DNA of 64,000 bases. Source: Lacrimispora sp. BS-2 (GTDB lineage Bacteria > Bacillota > Clostridia > Lachnospirales > Lachnospiraceae). A program made the position numbers and the translations under genes. Location of the stretch: contig NZ_CP157940.1 of the NCBI RefSeq assembly GCF_040207125.1, positions 248,001 to 312,000 on the forward strand. The letters are read 5' to 3'. Below are positions 11,994-29,831 of the stretch, in pieces (position 1 is the stretch's first letter; every line of letters starts with the position of its first letter). The notes beneath the pieces are model-generated. The model saw only the letters and a program-made list of their open reading frames with translations. It did not search any database and was not told the origin of the DNA.

Positions 11994-12031
11994 GCACTGC
12001 GGACTTATCATCTAAGAAAAGGAGCGTAAGC

Positions 12032-13183
12032 ATGGATTTCAATTTATCGAAAAAACACCTTCTCGCCAGGACCCTGTTTCAGCATTTTGCTGAAAGTGAG
12101 GTAAAGCCCCTAGCTCAGGAGACCGACGAGACGGAAAAGTTTCCGAAATCAACCGTTGAAAAGATGGCAGAATACGGATTCCTGGGGATTCCGGTCCCCA
12201 GAGAATACGGCGGCCAGGGATGTGATCCCCTTACATACGTTATGTGCGTGGAGGAGCTTGCCAAGGTGTGTGCGACCACTGCCGTCATTGTATCTGCCCA
12301 CACGTCTCTTTGCATTGATCCCATACTTACCTATGGGACGGAAGCACAGAAGCAAAAATACATCCCTGACCTGGCTTCCGGAAAGAAGCTTGGCGCCTTT
12401 GGACTGACAGAGTCCGGGGCAGGAACCGACGCCCAGGGACAGCAGACAAAGGCAGTGCTACATGAGGACCATTGGGTGTTAAATGGCTCCAAATGCTTTA
12501 TCACCAATGGAAAAGAAGCGGATGTCTACGTGATCATTGCCGTGACCGGCACCGTGGAAAAGCGGGGAAAAAAGATGAAGGAAATCTCCGCCTTTCTTGT
12601 GGAAAAGGGGACTCCGGGCTTTTCTTTCGGGACAAAGGAAAAGAAAATGGGGATCAGGGGTTCATCTACCTATGAACTGATTTTCACGGACTGCCACATC
12701 CCTAAGGAAAACCTGCTTGGAAGCCTTGGAAAGGGATTTCAGATCGCCATGCATACCTTAGACGGCGGCAGGATCGGCATTGCTGCCCAGGCCCTGGGAA
12801 TTGCGGAAGGAGCATTTGACTCCACGGTGAAATATGTTATGGAAAGAAAGCAGTTTGGCCGCAGCATAGGCCAGTTCCAGAATACCCAGTTCCAGATAGC
12901 AGATATGGCTGCCAGGATCGAAGCTGCAAAGCTGCTGGTCTACAAGGCTGCCATGGCAAAAGCAGCGCAAAAGAACTACAGCGTGGAAGCCGCCATGGCA
13001 AAGTTATATGCGGCGGAGGCTGCCATGGATGTGACCACAAAAGCAGTCCAGCTTCATGGTGGCTACGGATATACCAGGGAATATGAAGTGGAGCGCATGA
13101 TGCGGGATGCCAAAATCACGGAGATATATGAAGGAACCTCGGAGGTGCAGCGCATGGTCATATCCGGGAATATTTTAAAATAA
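12032..13183 (+). CDS. bcd: Butyryl-CoA dehydrogenase (short-chain acyl-CoA dehydrogenase)
   Basis: 383 residues, normal for acyl-CoA dehydrogenases. FAD-binding motifs LTESGAGTDAQ (about 131-141) and the C-terminal QLHGGYGYTREYEVERMMRD and YEGTSEVQR blocks are present; the latter holds the catalytic Glu region. It would reduce crotonyl-CoA to butyryl-CoA using the EtfBA pair encoded immediately downstream. The start ATG has AAAAGGAG upstream. It supplies the step after 4-hydroxybutyryl-CoA dehydratase. No crotonase, thiolase or 3-hydroxybutyryl-CoA dehydrogenase lies with it, which fits crotonyl-CoA arriving from 4-hydroxybutyrate rather than from acetyl-CoA. Confidence 0.92.
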   Translation: MDFNLSKKHLLARTLFQHFAESEVKPLAQETDETEKFPKSTVEKMAEYGFLGIPVPREYGGQGCDPLTYVMCVEELAKVCATTAVIVSAHTSLCIDPILTYGTEAQKQKYIPDLASGKKLGAFGLTESGAGTDAQGQQTKAVLHEDHWVLNGSKCFITNGKEADVYVIIAVTGTVEKRGKKMKEISAFLVEKGTPGFSFGTKEKKMGIRGSSTYELIFTDCHIPKENLLGSLGKGFQIAMHTLDGGRIGIAAQALGIAEGAFDSTVKYVMERKQFGRSIGQFQNTQFQIADMAARIEAAKLLVYKAAMAKAAQKNYSVEAAMAKLYAAEAAMDVTTKAVQLHGGYGYTREYEVERMMRDAKITEIYEGTSEVQRMVISGNILK

Positions 13184-13195
13184 GGAGGACTTGTT

Positions 13196-13978
13196 GTGAA
13201 AATTGTAGTATGTATCAAACAGGTACCTGATACAAAGAACGGGGTAAAATTCAAGCCGGACGGCACTCTGGACCGGGGGTCCATGGCAAGTGTCATGAAC
13301 CCGGACGACAAAGCAGGACTGGAAGCTGCCCTGCGCATAAAGGACCAGCATGGCGGGGAAGTGACTGCCATCACCATGGGACTTCCCAAAGCGGATGAGG
13401 TCTTGCGGGAGGCTCTGGCCATGGGGGCAGATAAGGGAATCTTAATAACCGACCGGGTGCTGGGAGGAGCCGATACCTGGGCTACTTCCTCCACATTGGC
13501 AGGCGCCATCAGAAACCTGGAATACGATCTGATTATTACAGGCCGTCAGGCCATTGACGGAGATACGGCGCAGGTGGGGCCACAGATTTCTGAACATTTA
13601 GGCATTCCGGTTATTTCCTATGCCCAGAATATCCGGGTAGAGGGAGACTGTGTGGTCGTGGAGCGCCAGTTTGAGGACCGGTATCACGTTTTAAAGGCAA
13701 AGCTTCCCTGCCTGATCACAGCGCTTTCCGAGCTGAACGAGCCACGTTACATGACTCCGGGCGGTATCTTTGATGCGTATGATGCGGATATCACGGTATG
13801 GGGAAGAGACGATTTAAAAGACGTAGCTGACACGGACATTGGATTAAAAGGTTCTCCCACCCAGATAGCAAAGGCTTCCGACAAGGTGAAAAAGGGAACG
13901 GGAGAGATGATAAGTGGAAGTCCTGGAGAATCTGCGGCGTTTATTGTGGAAAAGTTAAAGGAAAGACATGTTATTTAG
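13196..13978 (+). CDS. etfB: Electron-transfer flavoprotein beta subunit
   Basis: 260 residues starting at GTG 13196 after AAGGAGG. The N-terminus MKIVVCIKQVPDTK is diagnostic of EtfB, and TGRQAIDGDTAQVGPQ is the family signature near residue 121. With EtfA it passes electrons to butyryl-CoA dehydrogenase. In clostridial Bcd-Etf complexes this pair can bifurcate electrons from NADH to crotonyl-CoA and ferredoxin; the bcd-etfB-etfA order here is the same, so bifurcation is plausible but not proven by the sequence read alone. Confidence 0.93.
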   Translation: MKIVVCIKQVPDTKNGVKFKPDGTLDRGSMASVMNPDDKAGLEAALRIKDQHGGEVTAITMGLPKADEVLREALAMGADKGILITDRVLGGADTWATSSTLAGAIRNLEYDLIITGRQAIDGDTAQVGPQISEHLGIPVISYAQNIRVEGDCVVVERQFEDRYHVLKAKLPCLITALSELNEPRYMTPGGIFDAYDADITVWGRDDLKDVADTDIGLKGSPTQIAKASDKVKKGTGEMISGSPGESAAFIVEKLKERHVI

Positions 13979-14001
13979 CGGAATAGATGGGAGGCGGCTA
14001 T

Positions 14002-15045
14002 ATGAATCTGGAAGAATACAAAGGGATCTGCGTTTTTGCGCAGCAGACAGATAACCGGTTAAACAGCATTGCTTTTGAATTGCTTGGAAAAGGAAAGGAA
14101 CTTGCAAAAGATTTAGATACAGATGTCACCGCAGTGCTCATTGGCTCCGGTGTTATGGGATTGGCGGATGAGCTTGCCGCATATGGTGCCGACAGGGTGA
14201 TAGTCGTAGACGGTCCGGAATTAAAGGAGTACAGGGCAGAGCCTTATACCCATGCACTTGCTTCGGCAATCAGAAAATACAAGCCGGAAATTGTTCTCAT
14301 AGGAGCAACTGCTGTGGGAAGAGAGTTAGGGCCTAAGGTGTCGGCCAGAATTGCAACAGGACTGACTGCGGATTGTACAAAGCTGGAAATCGGGAATTTT
14401 CCGTTAAATCCGGTTTCAGGAAAAGAACAGAAAGCAAATCAGCTTCTGATGACACGCCCTGCTTTCGGCGGCAATACCATAGCTACCATTGCCTGCCCCA
14501 ATCATCGTCCCCAGATGGCCACGGTCCGTCCGGGAGTGATGCGCGCCGAAGAGAAAGTTCCGGGCAGAAAGGCAGTCATTGAGGAATTTGATCCTGGCTT
14601 TCTTCAAAAAAAGAATGATACGGAAATTCTTGAGATTGTGAAAGCCGTAAATGAAACAGCAGATATTATGGACGCCAAAATACTGGTGTCAGGGGGACGA
14701 GGCATAGGCTGTCCGGAAAACTTCCACCTTCTGGAAGAGTTTGCAAGGGCAGTAGGCGGAGAGGTAAGCTGCTCAAGGGCGGTTGTGGACGCAGGATGGA
14801 AGCCAAAGGACTTACAGGTGGGCCAGACCGGAAAGACCGTTCGTCCCAATGTGTATTTTGCCGTTGGAATTTCCGGGGCAATCCAGCATGTGGCAGGTAT
14901 GGAAGAGTCTGATTTGATCATTGCCATCAATAAGGATGAAAGCGCACCCATTTTTGAGGTCGCAGATTACGGTATTACCGGAGACTGGAAGAAAATTGTG
15001 CCGGAACTGATCAGGCAGCTTCAGGCAGTGAGAGCCGGAATGTAA
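14002..15045 (+). CDS. etfA: Electron-transfer flavoprotein alpha subunit
   Basis: 347 residues from ATG 14002, chosen because GGGAGGCGG sits just upstream; an ATG at 13987 lacks such a site. The C-terminal FAD-binding domain is clear: VSGGRGIG, then SRAVVDAGW, VGQTGKTVRPNVYFAVGISGAIQH and the terminal INKDESAPIFEVADYGI block. The N-terminal domain is shorter than in ferredoxin-fused EtfA proteins; no extra Fe-S motif is present. It is the partner of EtfB 23 bases upstream and serves butyryl-CoA dehydrogenase. Confidence 0.93.
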   Translation: MNLEEYKGICVFAQQTDNRLNSIAFELLGKGKELAKDLDTDVTAVLIGSGVMGLADELAAYGADRVIVVDGPELKEYRAEPYTHALASAIRKYKPEIVLIGATAVGRELGPKVSARIATGLTADCTKLEIGNFPLNPVSGKEQKANQLLMTRPAFGGNTIATIACPNHRPQMATVRPGVMRAEEKVPGRKAVIEEFDPGFLQKKNDTEILEIVKAVNETADIMDAKILVSGGRGIGCPENFHLLEEFARAVGGEVSCSRAVVDAGWKPKDLQVGQTGKTVRPNVYFAVGISGAIQHVAGMEESDLIIAINKDESAPIFEVADYGITGDWKKIVPELIRQLQAVRAGM

Positions 15046-15172: not shown

Positions 15173-15230
15173 GTGGGAAGATTAAGGGAACTTATTTGAT
15201 GCCATTATTTTACAGGAGGGGTTGGGGAAT

Positions 15231-15923
15231 ATGTATCAAACAATCATCATTGAAGATGACCCTATCGTTGCTTCTATTAACCGTCATTATGTAGAGCTAA
15301 ACAAAGACATGGAAGTATGCGGTTGTTTTTCCAATGGGCGGGATGCTCTTAATTATTTAGAGGAGCATTCCGTAGATTTGGCCATTACGGCACTGTATAT
15401 GCCGAAAATGGATGGTATGGAGCTTTTACGGGAAATCCGGAGACAGGAGAAGGATCTGGATTTCATAGTAGTAAGTTCCGCCAATGATGTAAAGCATGTG
15501 AAGAAGTTTCTTTCGCTTGGAATTATCGATTATTTGATAAAGCCATTTGAATATAACAGGTTTAATCATGCTTTGGAGAAATTCACGAAAAGTCAGGAGT
15601 TGCTGAAACCGCGCAATTTCTCCCAGTCCCAGTTAGATAAACTGTTTCATGTTTCTTCTCTGCCACAGGCAGAAGAAAACAGTAAGGGAATCCAGGAAGC
15701 TACTTTGTATAACATATTGGATTATATGAAGATAAACCAGTTAAATCCAATGACAAGCGAGAAAATCGCCAAAGAGGTCCAGTTATCTAGTGTAACGGTC
15801 AGAAGGTACATGAACTATCTGCTGGAAAAACAAAGGGTTATCAGTGACATTGATTATAATACAGGAGGAAGGCCCGGTGTTGTTTACCGTTACATAGAAC
15901 AAGAGGATCGCCTGGCAGAGTGA
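15231..15923 (+). CDS. CitB/DcuR-like response regulator with missing phospho-Asp
   Basis: 230 residues from ATG 15231, after AGGAGGGG. The receiver domain (about 1-120) keeps the acidic pair IIEDDP, the MPKMDG loop, the Ser in VVSSAND and the Lys in IKPFEY, but the phospho-accepting position 54 is Ala (codon GCA at 15390-15392), in DLAITALYMP where relatives have Asp. The C-terminal helix-turn-helix (about 150-230: MTSEKIAKEVQLSSVTVRRYM) is like the DcuR/CitB/DctR regulators of C4-dicarboxylate and citrate metabolism. No histidine kinase is adjacent. It lies between the bcd-etf and the Hdr-fumarate reductase operons, which suits a dicarboxylate-pathway regulator working without phosphorylation; that role is inference. 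Confidence 0.85.
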   Translation: MYQTIIIEDDPIVASINRHYVELNKDMEVCGCFSNGRDALNYLEEHSVDLAITALYMPKMDGMELLREIRRQEKDLDFIVVSSANDVKHVKKFLSLGIIDYLIKPFEYNRFNHALEKFTKSQELLKPRNFSQSQLDKLFHVSSLPQAEENSKGIQEATLYNILDYMKINQLNPMTSEKIAKEVQLSSVTVRRYMNYLLEKQRVISDIDYNTGGRPGVVYRYIEQEDRLAE

Positions 15924-16747: not shown

Positions 16748-18374
<1,627 letters not shown>

Positions 18375-18458
18375 ATATTTATTACTTGCTTATGATTTCA
18401 CTCATTTCTGATTTATGATAAATTATTATCAATGTAAGAGGTTGGGAGGTTTTAGACA

Positions 18459-19259
18459 ATGGTTTACAGTTATTATCCGGGCTGTACATTGAAGGCAAAG
18501 GCGAAGAAACTGGACCGCTATGCAAGGGAATGTGCCCATATATTAGAAATTGAGCTGGAAGAGATAGAGAACTGGCAATGCTGCGGAGGCGTCTATCCCG
18601 GGATGGCGGACGAACTGGCTACACGCCTTTCTCCTGTGCGTGCATTAAGGGAGGCAGGGGAGAAAAAGCAGGATCTGGTGACTGTATGCTCAGCATGTCA
18701 CCACGTGTTAAAAAGGGTCAATGAGGATATGAAGACTTCCGGAGAAATAAGACAGAAGATCAATGCTTATCTGGAGCCTGAAAATGGTTATGAAGGTGAG
18801 ACAAAGGTCATTCACTACTTGGAACTGCTTCGGGACCGTATCGGCTTTGACCGGATCAAAGAAAAAGTAAAACATCCTCTTAATGGAAAGAAGATAGCAC
18901 CTTATTATGGCTGCCTGCTTCTAAGGCCTTTCCAGGTAATGAATTTTGATGATCCGGAAAATCCATCCATTATGGAAGAGTTTCTCCTTGCAATCGGCGC
19001 CCAGCCGGTTCACTACGCTTTAAAAAACGAGTGCTGCGGCGGATATGTGACTGTGGAAGATGAGAAATTTGCTTCTGAAAAAAGTTCCTCTATTATGGAA
19101 GCTGCTATGGACCAGGGTGCAAAAGGCATGATTACGGCCTGTCCGTTATGTAAATACAATCTGGAAAATGGCGGGCTGAAAGAGGACATTCCGGTTTACT
19201 ATTTTACGGAACTTCTGGCGGAGGCTTTGGGAGTGAAAGAACAGGAGGAAGGAACGTGA
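18459..19259 (+). CDS. hdrB: Heterodisulfide reductase subunit B-like protein (HdrB)
   Basis: 266 residues with two complete CCG domains. The first has C9, C41-C42, C77 and C80; the second has C152, C192-C193, C228 and C231. These are the cysteines that hold the two non-cubane [4Fe-4S] clusters at the disulfide site of methanogen HdrB. Clostridia do not make CoM/CoB, so the natural acceptor is not the classical heterodisulfide; the fumarate reductase genes in the same operon suggest electrons may go there. First gene of the operon, after GGTTGGGAGG. Confidence 0.92.
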   Translation: MVYSYYPGCTLKAKAKKLDRYARECAHILEIELEEIENWQCCGGVYPGMADELATRLSPVRALREAGEKKQDLVTVCSACHHVLKRVNEDMKTSGEIRQKINAYLEPENGYEGETKVIHYLELLRDRIGFDRIKEKVKHPLNGKKIAPYYGCLLLRPFQVMNFDDPENPSIMEEFLLAIGAQPVHYALKNECCGGYVTVEDEKFASEKSSSIMEAAMDQGAKGMITACPLCKYNLENGGLKEDIPVYYFTELLAEALGVKEQEEGT

Positions 19260-19627
19260 GGGAAGAAATTTTAAGGATCAGCGGTGTGAACCCCTCAAAA
19301 TGCATGAAATGCGGAAAATGTACAGCTACCTGCCCTGCATTTGAAAAGATGGAATATCACCCTCATCAATTTGTGGATATGGTTAAGAACAATCAGATAT
19401 CCCCTCTTTTGGAATCGGAATCCCTGTATTGCTGTATGACCTGTCTGGCCTGTGAGGAACGGTGTCCCAGAGGGGTGAAGCCCCAGAAACTCATAGAAGC
19501 CGTCCAGGTTATAAAGCTGAGGGCATCGGGGGCCAACCGGCTGAAACCCCAGGATGTAGCGGAACGGCTGGATCCATCGCTTCCCCAGCAGGCCCTTATG
19601 GCGGCATTCAGAAAATACAGCAGGTGA
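19256..19627 (+). CDS. hdrC: Heterodisulfide reductase subunit C-like protein (HdrC)
   Basis: 123 residues with two [4Fe-4S] motifs, CMKCGKCTATCPA (about 17-29) and CMTCLACEERCPRG (about 62-75). Starts with GTG at 19256, overlapping the hdrB stop by 4 bases, so it is translationally coupled; GGAGGAAGG lies upstream. It is the usual electron bridge between HdrA and HdrB. Lacks any membrane segment, as expected for the soluble HdrABC type. Confidence 0.92.
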   Translation: MREEILRISGVNPSKCMKCGKCTATCPAFEKMEYHPHQFVDMVKNNQISPLLESESLYCCMTCLACEERCPRGVKPQKLIEAVQVIKLRASGANRLKPQDVAERLDPSLPQQALMAAFRKYSR

Positions 19628-19649
19628 CAAAAGAAAGGAAGGGAAAATT

Positions 19650-21638
19650 TTGCAGAAAATAGGAGTTTTTGTCTGTTGGTGCGGAAGCAACATTGCGGCT
19701 ACTGTGGATGTAAGTCAGGTCGCAGCTGCTGCCAAGGAAGAACCAGGCGTTGTTTTTGCATCTGATTATGCATATATGTGCTCGGAAGCCGGCCAGCTTA
19801 TGATTCAAAACGCGATCAGGGAAAAGGGGCTGACCGGAATCGTAATATGCTCCTGCTCCCCGCGCATGCATGAGGCCACGTTCCGCAAAGCAGCACAGGC
19901 TGCGGGACTGAATCCCTACATGGTGGAAATTGCCAATATCAGGGAGCAGTGCTCCTGGATCCATAAAAATAAAGAAGAAGGAACGAAAAAAGCAATTCTC
20001 TTAGCAAAGGCCGCAATCGCCAAGGTCCATTTGAACGAACCGCTGACAGCGGGAGAAACTCCTGTGACAAAGCGGGCCCTGGTAATCGGAGGGGGAATTG
20101 CAGGGATCCAGACTGCCCTTGATATTGCTGATGCAGGATTTGAGGTTGACATTGTAGAGAAATCACCTACCATAGGCGGAAAAATGGCTCAGCTTGATAA
20201 GACCTTTCCCACTTTGGACTGTTCGGCCTGTATCCTTACCCCTAAGATGGTGGATGCAGCAGCCCATGAGAAGATCCGTTTGTTTACTTATAGTGAAGTA
20301 GAGAAGGTAAAAGGCTTTGTGGGGAATTTTACCGTAGACATCCGGAAAAAAGCCAGAAGCATACTGGAAGAGAAGTGTACGGGATGCGGAGTATGTACGA
20401 CAAAATGTCCTTCCAGGAAAACGGGAAACGAATTTAACGAAGGGCTGGATAACCGGACAGCCATTTATATTCCCTTTGCCCAGGCAATTCCCAACATTCC
20501 GACCATTGACAGGGAAGCCTGTATCCATTTTAAGACCGGAAAATGCGGCCTGTGCCAGAAGACCTGCGGCGTGGGTGCCATTGACTTTGACCAGCAGGAT
20601 GAGATCATCACCAGGAACTACGGTGCCATTGTGGCTGCCACAGGGTTTCAGACCATATCCCTGGAAAGGTTTGATGAATTCCAGTATTCCAAAAGTCCTG
20701 ATGTCATCACTTCCTTAGAACTGGAGCGGCTGATGAATGCCGCCGGCCCAACTAAGGGAGAACTGGTAAAGCCTTCAAACCGGGAACACCCGAAAGATAT
20801 GGTATTTATCCAGTGCGTCGGCTCCCGGGGAGAGTCCTGCAGGGAAAAGAGCTACTGCTCTAAGATCTGCTGCATGTACACGGCCAAACACGCCATGATG
20901 ATCCGTGACAAATATCCGGACATCAATGTCCATGTATTTTACATTGACGTACGCACACCGGGAAAGAATTTCGACGAATTTTACCGCAGGGCAGTGGAAG
21001 ATTACGGCGTTGATTACCGGAAGGGAATGGTAGGAAAGGTAATGGAGCAAAAGGACGGCAGGCTGTTGGTTCAGGCCTCCGACTTACTGAATGGACAACA
21101 GCTTTTGCTGCAAACCGATATGGTGGTACTGGCAACAGCCATAGAGCCTGATAAATCAGCCAGAAATCTTGCTACCATGCTCACTGCCAGCATGGACACC
21201 AACGACTTTTTTACGGAGGCCCATCCCAAACTGAGGCCTGTGGAAAGTCCCACTGCCGGAGTATTCTTATCAGGAACCTGTCAGGGGCCAAAGGACATTC
21301 CGGAGACTGTGGCTCAGGCAGGAGCGGCAGCAGCCAAGGTCATCGGACTTTTATGCAGGGATAAGCTTCTTAATAACCCTCAAGTGGCCCAGGCAAAGGA
21401 ACGTTTGTGCAGCGGGTGCTCTAATTGTTCCAAAGTCTGTCCATACGGAGCCATTGATTACGAAGAGAGAGAAGTTTTGGATCATGGAGTCAGGGAAACG
21501 CGGAGGCTTGCTATGGTAAACGAGGCGGTGTGCCAGGGCTGCGGAGCCTGTACGGTGGCTTGTCCATCGGGAGCCATGGATTTAAAAGGATTTACCGTAA
21601 AACAGATTATGGCGGAGGTAGATGCGATATGCAGATAG
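19650..21638 (+). CDS. hdrA: Heterodisulfide reductase subunit A-like flavoprotein (HdrA)
   Basis: 662 residues from a TTG start after AAGGAAGGGA. The FAD-binding motif VIGGGIAG is at about 145-152, followed by the HdrA signature KMAQLDKTFPTLDCSACIL. Fe-S motifs: C243/C246/C249/C253, a second set around C291-C306, and two C-terminal ferredoxin-like clusters CSGCSNCSKVCPYG and CQGCGACTVACPSG. In the family HdrA carries the bifurcating FAD, splitting electrons between ferredoxin and the HdrBC branch. Here it would receive electrons from the FlxD/FlxABC partners encoded next. Its last 10 bases overlap the next gene. Confidence 0.93.
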   Translation: MQKIGVFVCWCGSNIAATVDVSQVAAAAKEEPGVVFASDYAYMCSEAGQLMIQNAIREKGLTGIVICSCSPRMHEATFRKAAQAAGLNPYMVEIANIREQCSWIHKNKEEGTKKAILLAKAAIAKVHLNEPLTAGETPVTKRALVIGGGIAGIQTALDIADAGFEVDIVEKSPTIGGKMAQLDKTFPTLDCSACILTPKMVDAAAHEKIRLFTYSEVEKVKGFVGNFTVDIRKKARSILEEKCTGCGVCTTKCPSRKTGNEFNEGLDNRTAIYIPFAQAIPNIPTIDREACIHFKTGKCGLCQKTCGVGAIDFDQQDEIITRNYGAIVAATGFQTISLERFDEFQYSKSPDVITSLELERLMNAAGPTKGELVKPSNREHPKDMVFIQCVGSRGESCREKSYCSKICCMYTAKHAMMIRDKYPDINVHVFYIDVRTPGKNFDEFYRRAVEDYGVDYRKGMVGKVMEQKDGRLLVQASDLLNGQQLLLQTDMVVLATAIEPDKSARNLATMLTASMDTNDFFTEAHPKLRPVESPTAGVFLSGTCQGPKDIPETVAQAGAAAAKVIGLLCRDKLLNNPQVAQAKERLCSGCSNCSKVCPYGAIDYEEREVLDHGVRETRRLAMVNEAVCQGCGACTVACPSGAMDLKGFTVKQIMAEVDAICR

Positions 21639-22078
21639 AAGATAACAGCAACAAGGAGTTTAAGCCTCTCATCCTGGCGTTTTGCTGCAACTGGTGCAGC
21701 TATGCAGGGGCCGATCTGGCGGGGTCAAGCCGCTCTTCCTATCCGGCAGAAGTAAAGATTATCCGGGTTCCCTGTTCCTGCAGGGTGAATCCCTTATTCC
21801 TGTTAAGGGCCTTTGAACGGGGGGCGGATGGCGTGATCTTAGCCGGCTGCCATCCGGGAGACTGCCATTATTCCACAGGCAATTACTATGCCAGAAGAAG
21901 GATGACCCTTTTGTTTGGCATGTTGGACTACCTTGGAATCGAACGGGAAAGAACCATGGTGGAATGGATCTCCGCAGCAGAGGGCGCCAAGTTTTCTGCG
22001 ACCATGAATGCTTTCACCCAGTCCATAAAAGAACTGGGACCAAACAGAAAGTTGAGGGATTTACGATGCATGCCATAG
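21629..22078 (+). CDS. mvhD: MvhD/FlxD-like [2Fe-2S] electron-transfer subunit
   Basis: 149 residues from ATG 21629, chosen because GCGGAGG lies just upstream; the open frame extends 99 bases further up inside hdrA but that extension has no ribosome site. The protein has the MvhD cysteine pattern: FCCNWCSYAGAD, PCSCRVNP and GCHPGDCHY. In methanogens MvhD links hydrogenase to HdrA, and in Flx-Hdr systems FlxD links an NADH dehydrogenase module. No hydrogenase genes are in this operon, so the Flx version fits. Confidence 0.9.
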   Translation: MQIEDNSNKEFKPLILAFCCNWCSYAGADLAGSSRSSYPAEVKIIRVPCSCRVNPLFLLRAFERGADGVILAGCHPGDCHYSTGNYYARRRMTLLFGMLDYLGIERERTMVEWISAAEGAKFSATMNAFTQSIKELGPNRKLRDLRCMP

Positions 22079-22941
22079 AAGAGACCATAAAAGAAACGTG
22101 TAAAAAGCTCTGGAATGAAGGAGAGATAAACCGGATTCTGGCATGGGAAAAAGGACTCTTTGACTACGAGGCGGCACCTGCCCTGTTCCGGAACCGGGAA
22201 AGCATCTCCCGTCTGGTTTACAATGAGCACTGCGGGGGAAATTTAAGCAAATTCCTTATAAAAGAAATGGGAAAAGAAGGAAAGGTACTGGTCCTTTTAA
22301 AGCCCTGCGATACATATGGATTTAACCAGCTTTTATCGGAAAAAAGGGTAAAACGGGAAAAGGTTTATATTCTGGGAGTTCCCTGTGGTGGAATGAGGGA
22401 TGAAAAGGGCCTGCTTTTCAAATGCCAGTCCTGTAAGGGCAATGATTTTAAAGCCTTTGACCAGATCATAGAATCGGATCTGTCCGTTCCGGCTCCGGTC
22501 CCCTCGAAAGAAGAGGAAAAATTGAACCAGATGACTGCAGAAGAACGCTTTGCTTTTTGGCGGGGGCAGCTTTCCAAATGTATCCGCTGCAATGCCTGCC
22601 GTAACATATGTCCTGCCTGCAGCTGCATCAAATGCGTGTTTGATAACCAGGATTCCGGAGTAGAGGCAAAGGCTAATTCCGATGCCTTTGAGGAAAATCT
22701 GTTTCATATTATAAGAGCCTTCCATGTAGCGGGAAGGTGTACGGACTGCGGGGAGTGCAGCCGGGTCTGTCCCCAGAACATTCCACTTTATCTGCTGAAC
22801 CGGAAAATGATTGAGGAGATCAATGAACGGTACGGAACCCATCAGGCAGGAGAAAGTCCTGACTCAAAGTCTCCGTTAACGGATTTTAAGGAGTCTGATC
22901 CGGAAATTTCGGCTATATATGGGAAAGGTGGTGTGTCTTGA
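22066..22941 (+). CDS. 4Fe-4S dicluster protein, FlxB-like / F420-hydrogenase beta-like
   Basis: 291 residues from ATG 22066, which follows TTGAGG and overlaps the mvhD end by 13 bases; a 34-codon upstream extension is unsupported. The N-terminal half resembles FrhB/FdhB-type electron input proteins (LLKPCDTYGF, GVPCGGMRD, CQSC), and the C-terminal half has two cluster motifs, CIRCNACRNICPACSC and CTDCGECSRVCPQN. Probably passes electrons between the NAD-binding subunit and HdrA. The Flx assignment is by gene order and general domain makeup; exact subunit naming is uncertain. Confidence 0.72.
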   Translation: MHAIEETIKETCKKLWNEGEINRILAWEKGLFDYEAAPALFRNRESISRLVYNEHCGGNLSKFLIKEMGKEGKVLVLLKPCDTYGFNQLLSEKRVKREKVYILGVPCGGMRDEKGLLFKCQSCKGNDFKAFDQIIESDLSVPAPVPSKEEEKLNQMTAEERFAFWRGQLSKCIRCNACRNICPACSCIKCVFDNQDSGVEAKANSDAFEENLFHIIRAFHVAGRCTDCGECSRVCPQNIPLYLLNRKMIEEINERYGTHQAGESPDSKSPLTDFKESDPEISAIYGKGGVS

Positions 22942-23987
22942 TGCTAAAAATGCCATTGGAACGTCTTGATGAACTTTTTTTTGAACTTTCAAAGGAGCAT
23001 CAGATATTTGCTCCCATGGAAAAGGCTGGCAGTGTTTCGTTTTTTCCATGGAAAAAAGGGGATACCCTGTGTTTTGATACTCTTTTGACAGATCGTGCAC
23101 CCAAGTCCTTTTTCTTTCCCCAGTCGGAGACTTTGTACCGAGCCAGGAAAGAAGAGGGGAGCCTTTCCATTGTGCCTGAAGAGGCAGAGGAAAAGAGCGC
23201 TGTTTATTTTGGTGTAAGGGCCTGTGACAGGAGAAGCTTTGAGCTTCTGGACCGGGTGTTCTTAAGCACACCCTGCGATTCCTGCTATGAATCCAAAAGA
23301 AGGAACGGGTATGTGGTGGCTTTAGCCTGTAAGAACCCTGAAAACACCTGTTTTTGCCAAAGCTTTGGCATCGATCCTGCCTGGCCGGGAGGAGATGTGT
23401 CCGTCTGGATCGCAGACGGAGAACTGTACTGGAAAAGCCTGACGGAAAAGGGAGATGCATTGACGGAATTAGTTTCAGAAATGTTTGAGGAGGGAGACCG
23501 TAAAAAGGTTGAGGAGCAGAAAGCAGAGATCCGTAAAAAGCTGGATGCTCTGCCCCTGAAGGATTTGAGTCTGGAACGGTTTGAACATCCGGATTCTTCC
23601 ATGGAGTTGTTTGAGTCGGAACAATGGGAATCCTTATCCGAAACCTGCTTAGGCTGCGGAATCTGCACCTTTGTATGTCCTACCTGCCAGTGCTATGATA
23701 TATGCGACTACAACGCAGGCCATGAAGTCAGGAAATTCCGCTGCTGGGATTCCTGTATGTATCCGGGCTTTACCGAGATGGCCCATGGAAACAACAGAAA
23801 CAACCAGATGCAGCGGTTCCGCCAGAGATTCATGCATAAGCTGGTATATTTTCCGGAAAACAACGGCGGCATATATTCCTGTGTGGGCTGCGGAAGGTGC
23901 CTGCGTAAATGTCCGTCTTCCTTAAATATTGCCAGGGTGATAAAAGCCCTGGGAGAGAACGGCACGGAAGGAGGAAACCATGAGTGA
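22941..23987 (+). CDS. 4Fe-4S protein, FlxC-like / anaerobic sulfite reductase A-like
   Basis: 348 residues from ATG 22941, sharing one base with the previous stop (TGATG). It resembles AsrA-type proteins: a GVRACDRRSFELLDRVF segment and CDSCYESKRR in the N-terminal domain, then C-terminal clusters CLGCGICTFVCPTCQCYD and CVGCGRCLRKCPSS. AsrA-like and AsrB-like proteins together form NADH-oxidising electron modules; here there is no AsrC sulfite reductase, so the electrons most likely go to HdrA. Overlaps the next gene by 8 bases. Confidence 0.75.
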   Translation: MLKMPLERLDELFFELSKEHQIFAPMEKAGSVSFFPWKKGDTLCFDTLLTDRAPKSFFFPQSETLYRARKEEGSLSIVPEEAEEKSAVYFGVRACDRRSFELLDRVFLSTPCDSCYESKRRNGYVVALACKNPENTCFCQSFGIDPAWPGGDVSVWIADGELYWKSLTEKGDALTELVSEMFEEGDRKKVEEQKAEIRKKLDALPLKDLSLERFEHPDSSMELFESEQWESLSETCLGCGICTFVCPTCQCYDICDYNAGHEVRKFRCWDSCMYPGFTEMAHGNNRNNQMQRFRQRFMHKLVYFPENNGGIYSCVGCGRCLRKCPSSLNIARVIKALGENGTEGGNHE

Positions 23988-24813
23988 CAGAACCAATGTA
24001 TTGATTCCGGAAATCGGTATGATTACAGATGTAAGAAGAGATACGCCGGATGTGAAAACTTTTCGCGTAAACGGGTTAGAGGGGAGAAAGCCCTTTGACC
24101 ATATGCCGGGGCAATGTGCCATGCTTTCCATTCCAGGAGTGGGGGAAGCCATGTTTTCCATCACTTCCTCACCAACCAACAGGGATTACATGGAGTTTTC
24201 CATTAAAAAATGCGGCTGCCTCACCGACTGGCTCCACCAGATGGAAAAGGGGCAGGAAATTGCCCTGCGGGGTCCATACGGCAATTACTTTCCCGTTGAT
24301 ACGGAGTTAAAAGGCAAGAACCTGCTCTTTATCGCCGGCGGGATCGGAATCGCGCCTCTGCGGTCTGTGATTAATTACGTCATTGACAACCGGGCGGATT
24401 ACGGCCAGGTGGATATTGTTTACGGGGCCCGTTCGGCAGAGGATCTGGTAGATTTAGAAGAAATGAGAAAAGACTGGTCAAAGGTCCAGGGCTTCCGTGT
24501 GCATCTGACCATAGACCGGGCTGAAGAAGGCTGGGAAGGGAACGTGGCTTTTGTACCTGATTATGTCAGGGAGCTGAAGTTTTCAAACGACAGAACCGTT
24601 TTGGTATGCGGTCCGCCTGTGATGATAAAATATGTGCTGAAGGCACTGGAAGAAATGGAATTTGCCAGTACACAGGTCTATACGACCATGGAACTGAAGA
24701 TGAAATGCGGAGTGGGCAAATGCGGACGCTGCAACATAGGTGCTAAATACGTCTGCAAGGATGGACCTGTGTTCCGTTATGATGAATTGGGCGTCCTGCC
24801 CTCTGAATATTAG
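23980..24813 (+). CDS. NAD(P)H/FAD oxidoreductase subunit, FlxA-like / AsrB-like
   Basis: 277 residues of the ferredoxin-NADP reductase superfamily. The FAD-binding segment MFSITSSP (about 54-61), the NAD-binding GGIGIAPLRSVI (about 117-128) and VCGPPVMIKY (about 209-218) are in order, and the C-terminus has a [2Fe-2S] motif CGVGKCGRCNIG with a further Cys (YVCKDGPVF). This is the likely NADH entry point of the complex. It is also similar to PyrK and sulfhydrogenase gamma subunits, but the operon favours the Hdr-linked Flx role. Confidence 0.85.
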   Translation: MSDRTNVLIPEIGMITDVRRDTPDVKTFRVNGLEGRKPFDHMPGQCAMLSIPGVGEAMFSITSSPTNRDYMEFSIKKCGCLTDWLHQMEKGQEIALRGPYGNYFPVDTELKGKNLLFIAGGIGIAPLRSVINYVIDNRADYGQVDIVYGARSAEDLVDLEEMRKDWSKVQGFRVHLTIDRAEEGWEGNVAFVPDYVRELKFSNDRTVLVCGPPVMIKYVLKALEEMEFASTQVYTTMELKMKCGVGKCGRCNIGAKYVCKDGPVFRYDELGVLPSEY

Positions 24814-24824
24814 GAGGTTGACCA

Positions 24825-25499
24825 ATGAATGATATGATTACTGTTTATCTGTTCGGTAAAAAATATACAGTTCCGTCCAATTTAACCATAATGGGAGCAA
24901 TGGAATATGCAGGATACCAGCTTGTGCGGGGCTGCGGCTGCAGGTGCGGCTTCTGCGGAGCCTGTGCCACGATTTACCGTATCAAAGGAGACAGGGAATT
25001 AAAGACCTGTCTGGCCTGCCAGACCCAGGTCCGGGAAAACATGTATGTGGCCACCCTTCCCTTTTTCCCTCTGGTAAAGGAGGTTTATGACATAAGTAAG
25101 GTTTCGGTCAATGAACAGGTCATGATGGAGCTGTATCCGGAAATCTACAAGTGCATCGGGTGTGCAGCCTGTACCAAAAGCTGTCCCCAGGGCCTTGATA
25201 CCATGCAGTATATTGCATATGCCCAGAGAGGGGAATTGGAGAAATGTGCCGAAGAATCCTTTGACTGTGTGATGTGCGGGATTTGTTCTTCCAGGTGTCC
25301 GGCCGGGATTTCCCATCCTCAGGTCGGCCTTCTGGCCAGACGGATCACCGGAAAATATCTGGCTCCGGAATCAAGGCACTTAACCAACCGGGTAAGAGAG
25401 GTAGAGGCGGGGGATTTTACGGAGCTCATTGAAGCGATCATGGCAAAACCCCTGGAAGAACTGAAAAACCTTTATAATACCAGAGAAATCGAAAAGTAG
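24825..25499 (+). CDS. Fumarate reductase iron-sulfur-like subunit (FrdB-like, short)
   Basis: 224 residues. An N-terminal plant-ferredoxin-like domain carries GCGCRCGFCGAC and a later Cys (LKTCLAC) for a [2Fe-2S] cluster; two motifs follow, CIGCAACTKSCPQG (about 110-123) and CVMCGICSSRCPAG (about 147-160), of [4Fe-4S] type. This differs from classical FrdB/SdhB, which have one [2Fe-2S], one [4Fe-4S] and one [3Fe-4S] cluster. It lies 11 bases before frdA and after the Flx genes, so it is the obvious bridge between the Hdr/Flx complex and FrdA. AGGAGG precedes the ATG. Confidence 0.78.
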   Translation: MNDMITVYLFGKKYTVPSNLTIMGAMEYAGYQLVRGCGCRCGFCGACATIYRIKGDRELKTCLACQTQVRENMYVATLPFFPLVKEVYDISKVSVNEQVMMELYPEIYKCIGCAACTKSCPQGLDTMQYIAYAQRGELEKCAEESFDCVMCGICSSRCPAGISHPQVGLLARRITGKYLAPESRHLTNRVREVEAGDFTELIEAIMAKPLEELKNLYNTREIEK

Positions 25500-25510
25500 G
25501 AGGAATAGAC

Positions 25511-27112
25511 ATGTTTACAGCCAAGATGATGGATTCCGTAAAAAAGGTCGAGGCCACCAGGGAAGAACGGATGCAGACAGAGCCCCGGAGAATGACGGCA
25601 GAGGAAAAGGAAAAACTGCTGAAAGCCTATCACCCGGATTATAAAGAGGAAGAGTTTGCCATACTAAAGGCAGGCCCCAATAAGGGAGAAAAAGTGCCCA
25701 AAGAACTGGGAGTCCTTTTGCAGGCAAGGAGCCGGATCAGAGACACTGACGTGGATTTATCATCTCCGGACTACGATACGGATGTTCTGATCATAGGAGG
25801 AGGGGGAGCTGGCTGTGCGGCTGCCATTGAGGCTTACAGGGCAGGGGCAAAGGTACTGATAGCCACCAAGCTCCGTCTGGGGGATGCCAACACCATGATG
25901 GCGGAAGGCGGGATCCAGGCTGCGGACAAAGAAAACGATTCCCCCCAGATCCACTACTTAGACGCATTGGGAGGGGGACATTTCGCCAACCGGCCGGAGC
26001 TTTTGAAAAAGCTGGTCATGGAAGCTCCGGAAGCCCTTAAATGGTTAAATGAGCTGGGAGTGATGTTTGACAAGGACAAAGACGGAAACATGGTCACCAC
26101 TCACGGAGGCGGTACTTCCAGAAAGCGTATGCACGCGGCGGCCGACTACACGGGTGCTGAAATCATGAGAGTGCTCCGGGATGAAGTATTAAACCTTCCG
26201 ATTTCCGTGGCTGATTATACCTCTGCCGTGGAGCTCATTTTAGATGAGGATAAAAAGGCGGCGGGAGCAGTCCTTTTGAACATGGAAACAGGAGAACTTT
26301 TGACAGCCAGGGCAAAAACTGTTATTCTTGCCACAGGGGGAGCCGGACGGCTCCACTATCAGGGATTCCCCACCTCCAACCACTACGGGGCAACGGCCGA
26401 CGGCCTGGTTTTAGCTTACCGGGCAGGAGCAAAGCTTCTCTATCAGGATACCCTTCAATACCATCCCACCGGAGTTGCTTTTCCGGAGCAGATTTACGGG
26501 GCTTTGGTGACGGAAAAGGTCCGTTCCTTAGGCGCCATGTTAGTCAATGCCTTGGGGGAAGCTTTCATGCATCCACTGGAGACCAGGGATGTGTCTGCAG
26601 CCTCCATTATCAGAGAATGTGCAGATGGAAAAGGAGTTGTCACTCCTCTTGGGAAGGGAATCTGGCTGGATACTCCCATGATCGACTTAATTCATGGGAA
26701 AGGAACCCTGGAAAAGCGTCTCCCCGGAATGCTGCGCATGTATTTGAAATATGAAATCGATATGAGAAAAACCCCTATCTTGATCTATCCTACCCTCCAC
26801 TATCAAAACGGCGGAATCCAGATCCAAGCGGATTGCCAGAGCACCATAGAGAACTTGTTTGTGGCAGGAGAAGCAGTGGGAGGGATCCACGGAAGGAACA
26901 GGCTTATGGGAAATTCTCTTCTGGATATTATTGTTTTTGGCCGCAATGCCGGAAAATGTGCGGCCGGGCGCGTGAAAGACGTACATATAGGAAAGCTTGC
27001 TTTGTCACATATAAATGAAATGGAAGAGGAGTGCCAAAGAGCCGGTATTGTTATGGATAAAATTTCCCCGCTGCTTTTGCCAAAGTATGCCAGGACAGCG
27101 GGACAGCTATAA
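25511..27112 (+). CDS. frdA: Fumarate reductase flavoprotein subunit (FrdA-like)
   Basis: 533 residues. FAD-binding IIGGGGAG is at about 94-101, preceded by an unusual ~88-residue charged N-terminal extension. Family motifs include the MMAEGGIQAA loop, THGGGTSRKRMHAA, YHPTGVAF (H318) and ETRDVS (R359, the expected proton-shuttle Arg region), ending with the NRLMGNSLLDIIVFGR FAD block. It should interconvert fumarate and succinate. No cytochrome or membrane anchor gene is present, so the enzyme is probably soluble. L-aspartate oxidase (NadB) is a close relative, but no NAD-synthesis genes are near and fumarase follows directly. Confidence 0.87.
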   Translation: MFTAKMMDSVKKVEATREERMQTEPRRMTAEEKEKLLKAYHPDYKEEEFAILKAGPNKGEKVPKELGVLLQARSRIRDTDVDLSSPDYDTDVLIIGGGGAGCAAAIEAYRAGAKVLIATKLRLGDANTMMAEGGIQAADKENDSPQIHYLDALGGGHFANRPELLKKLVMEAPEALKWLNELGVMFDKDKDGNMVTTHGGGTSRKRMHAAADYTGAEIMRVLRDEVLNLPISVADYTSAVELILDEDKKAAGAVLLNMETGELLTARAKTVILATGGAGRLHYQGFPTSNHYGATADGLVLAYRAGAKLLYQDTLQYHPTGVAFPEQIYGALVTEKVRSLGAMLVNALGEAFMHPLETRDVSAASIIRECADGKGVVTPLGKGIWLDTPMIDLIHGKGTLEKRLPGMLRMYLKYEIDMRKTPILIYPTLHYQNGGIQIQADCQSTIENLFVAGEAVGGIHGRNRLMGNSLLDIIVFGRNAGKCAAGRVKDVHIGKLALSHINEMEEECQRAGIVMDKISPLLLPKYARTAGQL

Positions 27113-27125
27113 GGAGGAGGAAAAG

Positions 27126-27968
27126 ATGAGAGAAATATCAGTAAAAACATTGATCGACGTAGTAGAAAAGCTGTGTATTGATGCAAACCAGTACCTGCCC
27201 GAGGATGTGAAGAAGGCGATCAAGACCTGCCGCGCCTGTGAGGACTGGGACATTGCCTGCGGAGTTCTTGACAAGATCATCGAGAATTTCGAAATCGCAG
27301 AAAGGGAAGATGTGCCCATTTGTCAGGATACGGGCATGGCCTGTGTGTTTCTGGAGATCGGCCAGGATGTCCACTTTATTGACGGGGACTTGACCGAAGC
27401 CATCAATGAAGGCGTGCGCAGAGGCTACGAAAAGGGATTTTTAAGAAAATCCGTGGTAAAAGACCCGGTAAGGCGGGGAAATACAGGTGACAACACTCCG
27501 GCTCTGATTTATACGGAAATCGTTCCGGGAGACAAAGTGAAAATTACCGTAGGACCCAAGGGCTTTGGAAGCGAGAACATGAGTGCCATCCGCATGTTTA
27601 AGCCTTCTGCAGGAATCCAGGGAATCAAGGATTTTATTCTGGAGACCGTATCCGCCGCAGGTCCCAATCCATGCCCTCCTGTAGTAGTGGGCGTAGGAAT
27701 TGGAGGAAGCTTTGACAAGGCAGCCCTTCTGGCGAAAAAGGCTTTGATGAGAGAACTGGATTCCTCCCATCCGGACCCTTACTATGCTGATTTAGAAAAG
27801 GAAATGCTGGAAAAGATCAACCTTCTGGGAATTGGCCCCCAGGGCTTTGGCGGAAAGACCACTGCAATTGGAGTAAACATTGAGACCATGCCTACCCATA
27901 TCGCAGGCATGCCCTGTGCCATCAACATCAACTGTCATGTGACACGCCATAAAACGGAAATAGTCTAA
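27126..27968 (+). CDS. Class I fumarate hydratase, alpha subunit
   Basis: 280 residues from ATG 27126 after AAGGAGGAGG; a longer open frame starts within frdA but is unsupported. The protein is the N-terminal half of iron-sulfur fumarases: CQDTGMACVF carries one cluster Cys, and GGSFDKAALLAKKALMR and CAININCHVTRHK are family blocks. Together with the beta subunit it interconverts malate and fumarate. A tartrate dehydratase (TtdAB) cannot be ruled out by sequence, but the neighbouring fumarate reductase and malate dehydrogenase make fumarase the best call. Confidence 0.9.
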   Translation: MREISVKTLIDVVEKLCIDANQYLPEDVKKAIKTCRACEDWDIACGVLDKIIENFEIAEREDVPICQDTGMACVFLEIGQDVHFIDGDLTEAINEGVRRGYEKGFLRKSVVKDPVRRGNTGDNTPALIYTEIVPGDKVKITVGPKGFGSENMSAIRMFKPSAGIQGIKDFILETVSAAGPNPCPPVVVGVGIGGSFDKAALLAKKALMRELDSSHPDPYYADLEKEMLEKINLLGIGPQGFGGKTTAIGVNIETMPTHIAGMPCAININCHVTRHKTEIV

Positions 27969-28058
27969 TGTCTTTGAAAGGCTTAAGCGGTGAAAGACGC
28001 ACGCCGTTTTTCCTTACATTTTCGTGCCGCAGGCGTCAGCGGCGGATTGGAGATAATA

Positions 28059-28616
28059 ATGATAAAGCATATTACACTGCCTTTGACAAGAGAATTGTCC
28101 AAAACCCTTCACGCAGGAGATACGGTTTATCTGACCGGTGATATCTACACTTCCAGGGACGCCGGGCATAAGCGTATGTGTGAGACTCTGGCAAAAGGAG
28201 AGAAGCTGCCCTTTGATCCCATGGATGCCACGATTTATTACGTAGGGCCAACTCCCGCAAAGCCGGGCCAGGTGATCGGCTCTGCAGGACCTACTACCAG
28301 CGGCCGGATGGATGCCTATGCTCCCACCATGATGTCCGTAGGAGCCAGGGGAATGATTGGAAAAGGAGCCAGGCAGCCGGAAGTGATCGAAGCCATAAAG
28401 AAGTATGATGGTGTTTACTTTGGTGCCATTGGGGGAGCAGGAGCGTTGCTCGCCAAATGCATTAAAAAGCTGGAACCCATCGCTTATGAGGATTTGGGAG
28501 CAGAGGCTTTATGCAGATTATATGTAGAAGAAATGCCTCTTGTAGTCATTATCGACTGCGAAGGAAATAATCTCTATGAAGAGGGAAAAAATTCTTATTT
28601 AAAGTCAAAAGAGTAA
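28059..28616 (+). CDS. Class I fumarate hydratase, beta subunit
   Basis: 185 residues from ATG 28059, chosen because TTGGAG sits upstream and the protein then starts at the family's usual position (MIKHITLPLT). Key blocks are LTGDIYTSRDAGHKRM, GPTTSGRMD and GAIGGAGALLAKCI. It pairs with the alpha subunit encoded 90 bases upstream; the gap has a weak inverted repeat (CGCACGCCG) and no gene. Last gene of the hdr-frd-fum operon, about 100 bases before the malate dehydrogenase gene. Confidence 0.9.
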   Translation: MIKHITLPLTRELSKTLHAGDTVYLTGDIYTSRDAGHKRMCETLAKGEKLPFDPMDATIYYVGPTPAKPGQVIGSAGPTTSGRMDAYAPTMMSVGARGMIGKGARQPEVIEAIKKYDGVYFGAIGGAGALLAKCIKKLEPIAYEDLGAEALCRLYVEEMPLVVIIDCEGNNLYEEGKNSYLKSKE

Positions 28617-28718
28617 TTGGATTGATGAGTACCGGCTTTATGATGAAAAAGCAGTGGTTTCTGCCATATGGAAACCAATGTTTTTAAATAAATTATAAAA
28701 AATTACAGGAGGTATTTT

Positions 28719-29831
28719 ATGGGAACCAAAACAAACATTGTGGATTGGAAGACAATTACGGATTTTGTAGTGGATGCATTCAAGGGATATGGGATTCCGG
28801 AAGAAGATGCGAAAATCTGTGCGGATGTATTGCTGGAGTCTGATAAGAGGGGCATCGAATCTCATGGGGTAAACCGCTTTAAGCCCATTTATCTGGACCG
28901 TATCAAAGCGGGAATCCAGAGCCCGGTAACAAATTTTGAAGTAGTAAAGGAAACAAAAACTACAGCAGTTGTTGACGGCCATGACGGCATGGGCCAGGTA
29001 ATCGGTGTAAAATCCATGAATATGGCCATTGCGAAAGCCAAAGAATATGGCATGGGCATGGTTGTTGCCCGTAATTCCACCCATTACGGCATTGCAGGCT
29101 ACTATGCAACCATGGCTTCCCAGGCAGGCTGTATCGGAATTACAGGAACCAATGCAAGGCCTTCCATAGCTCCTACCTTTGGTGTGGAAAATATGCTGGG
29201 AACCAATCCTATTACCTTTGGTATGCCTACGGATGAGGAATTCCCCTTTGTGCTGGACTGTGCTACTTCCATTACCCAAAGAGGCAGAATCGAATACTAT
29301 TCCCGTATCGGCAAGTCCACTCCTTCCGGCATGGTAATCGGACGGGACGGAAAGCCCCAGACGGATTCAGATCAGATTCTTGTTGATTTGAATACGGGAA
29401 AAGCGGCCCTTGCACCTTTAGGCGGAATCGGTGAAGAACTGGCAGGCTACAAGGGATACGGCTATGCTACTGTGGTTGAAATTCTTTCCGCAGCTTTGCA
29501 GCAGGGAAATTTCTTAAGAGCCTTGACCGGCATTGGCGAAAATGGAGAAAAGGTACCCTTCCACCTTGGCCATTTCTTCATTGCCATTGATACGGAAGCC
29601 TTTATGGGCCTGGAATCCTTTAAAAAGACCTGCGGGGATATTCTCCGGGATCTTCGCGGTTCTGTTAAAGCTCCAGGGGAAGAACGCATTTATACGGCAG
29701 GTGAAAAAGAGTATCTGGTATGGCAGGAGCGCAAAAACAGCGGAGTGCCGATCAATGATGCAGTACAGAAAGAACTTATTAAGATCAGGGAGGAACTGGC
29801 ACTTAACCAGTACCGGTTCCCATTTGAATAA
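28719..29831 (+). CDS. Malate/L-lactate dehydrogenase, Ldh2 family
   Basis: 370 residues of the Ldh2/AllD/ComC family, which use NAD(P)H for 2-oxo to 2-hydroxy acid conversions and are unrelated to classical MDH. Motifs: ESDKRGIESHGVNRF (about 47-61), RNSTHYGIAGYY (catalytic His near residue 117) and GTNPITFG. Following fumarase it most likely supplies malate from oxaloacetate, giving the entry of the reductive branch. Other 2-oxo acids are possible for this family. AGGAGG precedes the ATG and a long hairpin follows the stop. Confidence 0.86.
   Translation: MGTKTNIVDWKTITDFVVDAFKGYGIPEEDAKICADVLLESDKRGIESHGVNRFKPIYLDRIKAGIQSPVTNFEVVKETKTTAVVDGHDGMGQVIGVKSMNMAIAKAKEYGMGMVVARNSTHYGIAGYYATMASQAGCIGITGTNARPSIAPTFGVENMLGTNPITFGMPTDEEFPFVLDCATSITQRGRIEYYSRIGKSTPSGMVIGRDGKPQTDSDQILVDLNTGKAALAPLGGIGEELAGYKGYGYATVVEILSAALQQGNFLRALTGIGENGEKVPFHLGHFFIAIDTEAFMGLESFKKTCGDILRDLRGSVKAPGEERIYTAGEKEYLVWQERKNSGVPINDAVQKELIKIREELALNQYRFPFE

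Follow-up and report, generated by a model that had tools for sequence, protein, structure and literature searches.

The FlxABCD-HdrABC complex of Desulfovibrio vulgaris is built from seven kinds of subunit, and all seven are also encoded, beside a fumarate reductase, in the locus considered here: a gene run in a 64,000-nucleotide stretch of the Lacrimispora sp. BS-2 genome (the window; C1:248001-312000, from the one contig of 4,489,992 bases that makes up this genome). Pairings of this kind have been proposed before. The available text of PMC7282089 describes, for Pseudoclostridium thermosuccinogenes, a "succinate operon" that brings together genes for fumarase, Flx-Hdr, and fumarate reductase, proposes ferredoxin-coupled fumarate reduction, and reports that the operon was up about 4-fold under CO2 limitation, although not significantly for all subunits. 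It cites a preprint (Koendjbiharie and van Kranenburg, 2019; 10.20944/preprints201912.0288.v1) for a fumarate reductase with a potential role in bifurcation. For tubeworm symbionts, the accessible parts of PMC6315080 propose a complex of TfrAB with FlxABCD-HdrABC and direct electron shuttling. A first-pass annotation of the window had suspected that a complex of this makeup might be undescribed, and these two papers overturn that suspicion. We suggest that the nine genes of the window probably encode a soluble NADH:fumarate reductase that bifurcates electrons to ferredoxin.

The nine genes lie intact on the + strand at 18459-27112 in the order hdrB-hdrC-hdrA-flxDBCA-frdB-frdA, and adjacent genes overlap or sit no more than 22 bases apart (Table 1). 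A two-subunit class I fumarase (27126-28616) continues the run 3' of frdA. The nearest solved relatives of the FlxB-like protein are beta subunits of F420-dependent formate dehydrogenase ("FrhB-like"). The first-pass annotation had named the hdr, flx, and frd genes, their tight packing, and the lack of a membrane anchor gene within the run, all of which we confirmed. It had also suggested a database search for this gene order as a check, and that search argues against a chance arrangement. Among the matches listed, we took the best 80 FrdA loci in named genomes; 59 had 7.6 kb or more of sequence upstream of frdA, and the 21 shorter ones were set aside. The nine genes occur in the window order in 58 of these 59, the exception (L153) being frdBA alone. 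The best 80 are mostly from Clostridia and include Ruminococcus flavefaciens FD-1 (L144; one of the nine-gene loci), [Clostridium] asparagiforme (L090), and Blautia schinkii (L155), as well as metagenome-assembled genomes labelled Synergistaceae (L156), Treponema (L113), Spirochaetaceae (L160), and Bacteroidaceae (L140). The FrdA family was found in 39 of the 398 genomes of a phylum sample (weakest match, E = 2.6e-174) and in 9 of 61 nearer genomes; within the genus it is present in 5 of 25, the window genome included.

Table 1. Coordinates of the hdr-flx-frd-fumarase run in the window, with the support for each assignment
Feature	Position	Strand	Support
hdrB, FrdA-linked type	18459..19259	+	ten Cys of two noncubane [4Fe-4S] sites all present
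hdrC, short form, 123 residues, GTG start	19256..19627	+	two [4Fe-4S] motifs
hdrA, full length, 662 residues, TTG start; candidate bifurcating FAD protein	19650..21638	+	C389/K413 align with 5odc C386/K409
flxD / mvhD protein	21629..22078	+	PF02662, 8e-54
flxB-like, FdhB/FrhB-related Fe-S protein	22066..22941	+	solved relatives
flxC (AsrA / sulfhydrogenase beta-like)	about 22941..23987	+	
flxA (AsrB / sulfhydrogenase gamma-like; NAD- and FAD-binding domains)	23980..24813	+	
frdB-like	24825..25499	+	ligands for one [2Fe-2S] (C39, C44, C47, C65) and two [4Fe-4S]
frdA, fumarate reductase flavoprotein	25511..27112	+	N-terminal extension of ~88 residues, no C-terminal domain, N127 replaces covalent-FAD His
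fumarase alpha subunit	27126..27968	+	PF05681, 2.7e-119
fumarase beta subunit	28059..28616	+	NF005310, 281.2 bits, cut-off 238
hdrB-to-fumB unit, missing at the matching site in two congeners (L195, L196)	18446..28650	.	flank match

Gene content and order, their conservation, the residues described below, and the HdrB and HdrC type that goes with FrdA can all be read directly from the sequences. The dicarboxylate active-site residues of FrdA are retained throughout: H318, E335, R338, and H430 in 72/72 loci and R464 in 71 (one gap), with the His, Arg, His, and Arg aligning to E. coli FrdA. The covalent-FAD His, as judged by alignment with the His of 2b76, is replaced by N127 in 72/72 loci; an Asn at this position is a better fit to fumarate reduction than to succinate oxidation. 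Only FAD_binding_2 and other FAD/NAD-domain models were found in FrdA by Pfam. Its top-scoring model is TfrA (356.2 bits against a curated cut-off of 718), and no C-terminal flavoprotein domain was found, the TfrA match stopping at 421 of 546. FrdB scores 36.1 bits with the TfrB model (curated cut-off 385), and a Pfam scan found no HdrB-like CCG domain (PF02754) in it, HdrB being a separate gene. A predicted FrdA structure (predicted local distance difference test score, pLDDT, 77; predicted template modelling score, pTM, 0.83) confirmed the Frd/flavocytochrome c fold and nothing more, residues 1-67 being scarcely probed; the predicted FrdB structure was poor (mean pLDDT 55).

The cofactor-binding residues of the Hdr subunits are equally conserved. 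The Cys and Lys of HdrA that align with C386 and K409 of 5odc, which we take to be residues near the bifurcating FAD, are retained in 72/72 loci. For HdrB, we aligned 107 rows of 240-340 residues (up to 420 for FrdA-negative ones), 87 of them FrdA-positive and 20 FrdA-negative. The ten noncubane-cluster Cys, which cover both [4Fe-4S] sites, are present in 72/72 nine-gene loci and 87/87 FrdA-positive rows, and are common to the FrdA-positive and FrdA-negative kinds. Two other positions tell the kinds apart: FrdA-linked HdrB has T10, which adjoins a ligand, and V83 in 87/87 rows, whereas FrdA-negative HdrB has S in 20/20 and R in 18/20, respectively.

Subunits were compared between 14 FrdA-negative loci, out of 20, and 12 FrdA-positive loci that lie outside the close clade of the window; the six FrdA-negative loci without a full Flx set were dropped, and HdrC was missing from one locus and FlxA from another. 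HdrB identity to the window is 41-55% (median 46.8) in the FrdA-positive loci and 35-40% (median 36.9) in the FrdA-negative ones, without overlap. HdrC scores do not overlap either, at 81-109 bits (median 92) against 57-72 bits (median 69), although HdrC identities do. By contrast, median identities do not differ for HdrA (56.3% in both) or FlxC (36.2% FrdA-positive, 36.3% FrdA-negative). HdrC lengths, taken from the longest frame that opens with a start codon, are 123-160 residues in all but one of the 85 linked FrdA-positive loci and 131-143 in all 7 unlinked ones, against 172-224 in 18 FrdA-negative loci. Because HdrB and HdrC separate with FrdA and the other subunits mostly do not, the presumed acceptor-facing subunits are specialised, and the presumed NADH- and ferredoxin-facing subunits mostly not.

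The HdrB split was also seen in a genome-wide search and in a tree. When the 398 genomes were searched with HdrB, the 27 best (218-609 bits) were all FrdA-positive, out of 39 positives overall; the 28th, G340 (FrdA-positive, 197.5 bits), scores about the same as the best-scoring FrdA-negative genome, G108 (196.1 bits), so that a cut at 218 bits is one made after the fact. The tree of 62 rows placed 41 HdrBs from FrdA-positive loci (34 linked and 7 unlinked) apart from 20 FrdA-negative HdrBs and one paralog, on a branch with 100/100 support and a length of 0.72; the HdrBs of G099, G441, G093, G135, G140, and the G340 locus and most paralogs were left out of it. The FrdA-negative loci had been picked among the best HdrB scorers, a choice that works against the observed split. 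These same FrdA-negative loci (L175-L194) have an in-frame TGA, as for selenocysteine, in hdrA in 12/20, where the DCSAC motif of the window has its second Cys, and in 8/20 in flxD; nine-gene FrdA-linked loci have Cys at these sites in 71/72 (one gap; hdrA) and 72/72 (flxD).

We then surveyed the layout of 47 further FrdA loci, separate from the named-genome set. Eight have the window gene order, a ninth (L079) has hdrC before hdrB, and four have frdBA ahead of hdrBCA-flxDBCA. Another 11 encode two HdrA proteins and flxD, without flxA as far as the contigs extend; the larger HdrA has ~1,050-1,490 residues where complete, and both such proteins that were scanned carry extra NAD(P)/FAD-binding domains (fusions of 1,092 residues at L054:11434-14709 and 1,489 residues at L068:11401-15867). 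In four loci (L050, L065, L069, and L070), hdrCB lies immediately 5' of frdBA with no adjoining HdrA or Flx gene, an arrangement resembling a split thiol:fumarate reductase. No hdr gene lies within the fetched stretch of 18 loci, three of which (L051, L066, and L084) have only 2-3 kb upstream, and one locus is cut. In several of these 18, fumarase adjoins frdBA with malic enzyme between them (identified by Pfam in L055). L062 has an FMN_bind + Fer4 protein and a small Fer4 protein 5' of frdBA, and L053 has genes of like size; these are perhaps a different electron donor. In the genomes without an HdrB match, listed below, frdBA lies at L047-L049, L051, and L052, and pyruvate carboxylase adjoins it in G439. 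In the seven genomes with unlinked frdBA whose separate HdrB place was retrieved, it is each time a full hdrBCA-flxDBCA operon (one contig stops before flxA). The linked or unlinked state changed at least four times on the FrdA tree, in which the cut locus L057 was given the same label as its congener L050. An association kept through such repeated rearrangement is what functional coupling would lead one to expect.

To see what else these cells encode, we searched for HdrB, RnfC, Sdh_cyt, DsrC, and MenD in 37 FrdA-positive genomes, out of 47 identified by that point; the 37-genome set of the HdrB search differs in three members from that of the others. The window genome has one HdrB match and a complete rnfCDGEAB set, no match to DsrC (PF04358), and no MenD over the cut-off. 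It also has no match to PF01127 (Sdh_cyt), PF02300-type (FrdC/FrdD-type) anchors not having been searched. Across the set, RnfC is over the cut-off in 30/37 genomes and MenD in 1/37, whereas Sdh_cyt was not found in 29/37 and DsrC not in 31/37. The DsrC carriers are all four genomes with the hdrCB-frdBA layout (G311, G359, G423, and G104) plus G093 and G140. A quinol-linked enzyme was considered and set aside on the PF01127 and MenD results, the futalosine route and FrdC/FrdD-type anchors lying outside the search; DsrC was likewise rejected as the acceptor, the window genome having no match to it.

In the mechanism that we propose, FlxA would oxidise NADH, and FlxB/FlxC and FlxD would relay the electron pair to the flavin of HdrA, to be split there. 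One electron would go from HdrA to ferredoxin and the other to HdrC and the noncubane clusters of HdrB, then on through the [4Fe-4S] and [2Fe-2S] centres of FrdB to the FAD of FrdA, where fumarate would be reduced to succinate. Two such rounds would give 2 NADH + fumarate + oxidised ferredoxin -> 2 NAD+ + succinate + reduced ferredoxin. Rnf could make an ion gradient from the reduced ferredoxin, and the fumarase of the run could supply fumarate from malate. The first-pass annotation had likewise coupled NADH oxidation to the reduction of both fumarate and ferredoxin. The part of that proposal that calls for a soluble NADH-linked fumarate reductase working via Flx-Hdr has good support from gene order, co-occurrence, catalytic and cluster residues, and the dedicated HdrB and HdrC. 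From the HdrA Cys and Lys retained and the presence of Rnf, we infer the ferredoxin branch; a physical complex, direct transfer from HdrB to FrdB, and the direction of the reaction are likewise inferred. The computed free energy is about -68 kJ/mol for the direct reaction and, for ferredoxin potentials of -0.50 to -0.40 V, -33 to -53 kJ/mol for the bifurcating one, which makes bifurcation feasible. The potentials used for fumarate (+33 mV) and NAD (-320 mV) are both also given in the available text of PMC5861303.

Several observations weigh against a bifurcating enzyme of this kind. Five of the 37 FrdA-positive genomes (G439, G131, G355, G190, and G127) have no HdrB match, and five of the 39 (G099, G441, G093, G135, and G140) have HdrBs that score only at the FrdA-negative level, so FrdBA seems able to use another donor. 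All disulfide-reductase Cys of HdrB are retained and might be superfluous in a mere wire. In the subunit comparison, FlxD (60.5 versus 57.2%; p = 3e-4) and FlxA (54.2 versus 52.4%; p = 0.04) are slightly closer to the window in FrdA-positive than in FrdA-negative loci and FlxB is less close (32.4 versus 35.9%; p = 0.03), p values that are no more than a guide, as the loci are related. Finally, fumarate reductase was not seen to be highly transcribed by two rumen ruminococci in sheep, according to a "data not shown" remark in the available text of PMC8092306.

Three other explanations have to be set against a bifurcating NADH:fumarate reductase. The same soluble enzyme might work without bifurcation, HdrA being a mere relay and the free energy being lost or making the step irreversible. 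The direct reaction is indeed strongly downhill, but HdrA is full length with its Cys and Lys in place in every locus, a simple diaphorase would need no HdrA, and ferredoxin should be usable in most FrdA-positive genomes given their RnfC; we consider this explanation unlikely. It is more improbable still that the operon encodes two enzymes, with Flx-Hdr reducing a small or protein disulfide, much as has been reported for DsrC in Desulfovibrio, and FrdBA drawing on the resulting thiols or another carrier, like the methanogen thiol:fumarate reductase. The ten Cys of HdrB and the five genomes with FrdBA and no HdrB match fit such a division, yet DsrC was not found in most FrdA-positive genomes, including that of the window, FrdB lacks the HdrB-like domain of TfrB, and the HdrB and HdrC types track FrdA. 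We regard as very improbable that the flavoprotein is not a fumarate reductase at all, i.e., an L-aspartate oxidase or other superfamily member, or that it mainly oxidises succinate. NadB models do match it (267.6-268.6 bits), and none of seven congeners searched, two FrdA-negative ones among them, has NadB over the cut-off. That score is far under the NadB cut-off of 452.75, however, and true NadB stands alongside FrdA in 4 of the 15 genomes searched. Since FrdA occurs in so few genomes of the genus and the two FrdA-negative congeners also lack NadB, FrdA is no stand-in for it, and we rejected L-aspartate oxidase as its identity. The fumarase within the run also speaks against this explanation, and N127 in place of the covalent-FAD His favours fumarate reduction over succinate oxidation.

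The surroundings of the run were compared with two FrdA-negative congeners, G008 and G011, of the 20 in the genus. Both match the window on both flanks without hdrB to fumB: the match breaks off at 18446 and resumes at 28651 in G008, and breaks off at 18445 and resumes at 28701 in G011 (L196), so that glpK abuts an Ldh2-like gene there. This Ldh2/malate-dehydrogenase-like gene (28719-29831) had been a candidate operon member and was rejected, as both empty sites retain it. Promoter and terminator scans returned no more sites than in shuffled sequence; a 13-base inverted repeat (ATTATGTAAGTAA / TTACTTACATAAT) was spotted by eye between glpK and hdrB, at 18329-18341 and 18362-18374. The two congeners also lack 981-15044, with ~650 bases holding a small acetyltransferase-like gene in its place; the stretch is present in the FrdA-positive G005 (L197). 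It encodes a succinyl-CoA reductase (best solved match 8cei, 1e-150), a 4-hydroxybutyryl-CoA dehydratase (best 1u8v, 2e-233), a 4-hydroxybutyrate-dehydrogenase-like protein, two CoA-transferases, LysR, and an acyl-CoA dehydrogenase with EtfBA; beyond the solved matches, we take these families to be sucD, 4hbD-like, abfD, bcd, and etfBA. As judged from these matches, it is a gene set for converting succinyl-CoA to butyryl-CoA via 4-hydroxybutyrate. The window genome has another abfD, at C1:364718. Between the two units is a gene for a DcuR-like response regulator (15222-15923; 155.6 bits, cut-off 262), retained in both empty sites. The dehydratase gene lies ~9 kb from glpK in all five FrdA-positive genomes of the genus, and no succinyl-CoA-to-butyryl-CoA genes were found in the fetched flanks of FrdA loci outside it, so the pairing of 4-hydroxybutyrate and hdr-frd genes is local to the genus. 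In the window genome, this pairing would link fumarate via succinate to butyrate.

A broader, tentative proposal is that fumarate rather than a disulfide may be the high-potential acceptor of a distinct bifurcating branch of HdrABC, in which the dedicated HdrB and shortened HdrC may have evolved as an exit to FrdB, and through which anaerobes without quinones or cytochromes may conserve energy from fumarate. Here, the succinate might feed the neighbouring succinyl-CoA-to-butyryl-CoA set, whose last step, by acyl-CoA dehydrogenase/EtfBA, may bifurcate as well, so that ferredoxin would be reduced at two points on the way from fumarate to butyrate. Organisms with quinones capture the ~68 kJ/mol between NADH and fumarate at the membrane, and a strict anaerobe that has no quinone chain must use another route; if the complex bifurcates, it would supply one, and a widespread one, given how often the FrdA family turns up in the phylum sample. 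The HdrB lineage and short HdrC provide sequence signatures that tell fumarate-linked from other Flx-Hdr within the phylum, an idea in print since 2019 is now directly testable, and the outcome matters for how succinate and butyrate are formed in gut and rumen.

The open-access papers searched yielded neither biochemical proof of such a complex nor the phrase "bifurcating fumarate reductase", and the window complex is thus a further case of a kind proposed in print since 2019 and apparently unproven. The P. thermosuccinogenes operon, by its published description, likewise joins fumarase, a Flx-Hdr block (RS03360 to 30, or seven tags if numbered at intervals of five), and a fumarate reductase of two tags. 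Judging by the tags, its fumarase precedes the other genes, whereas in the window fumarase ends the run, and a possible succinate transporter follows in P. thermosuccinogenes. CRISPRi has been established for this species (PMC9044749). In tubeworm symbionts and Thioflavicoccus, according to the accessible parts of PMC6315080, tfrAB is interspersed with flxABCD-hdrABC in reductive tricarboxylic acid cycle clusters; the symbionts are Gammaproteobacteria with korABCD and carbon fixation, whereas the window is from a Clostridium-type genome. With the FlxABCD-HdrABC type, the window shares all seven genes, the ten HdrB Cys, and the FAD-near residues of HdrA. The D. vulgaris complex is reported, in the literature available, to interact with DsrC, for which the window genome has no match, and Flx-Hdr loci without FrdA from the window's phylum (not D. 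vulgaris sequences) have a longer HdrC and another HdrB lineage. Methanogen TfrAB resembles the window in its FrdB-like and HdrB-like parts and in giving the model with which FrdA scores highest; in the window, HdrB is separate, HdrC, HdrA, and Flx adjoin, and both scores fall far under the curated cut-offs. Quinol:fumarate reductase and Sdh (FrdABCD) share the flavoprotein fold and active site, but in the window no anchor, covalent-FAD His, or C-terminal domain was found, and FrdB has two full [4Fe-4S] motifs. What the present analysis adds is the breadth of the distribution, the modular layouts, the dedicated HdrB and HdrC, and the paired empty sites.

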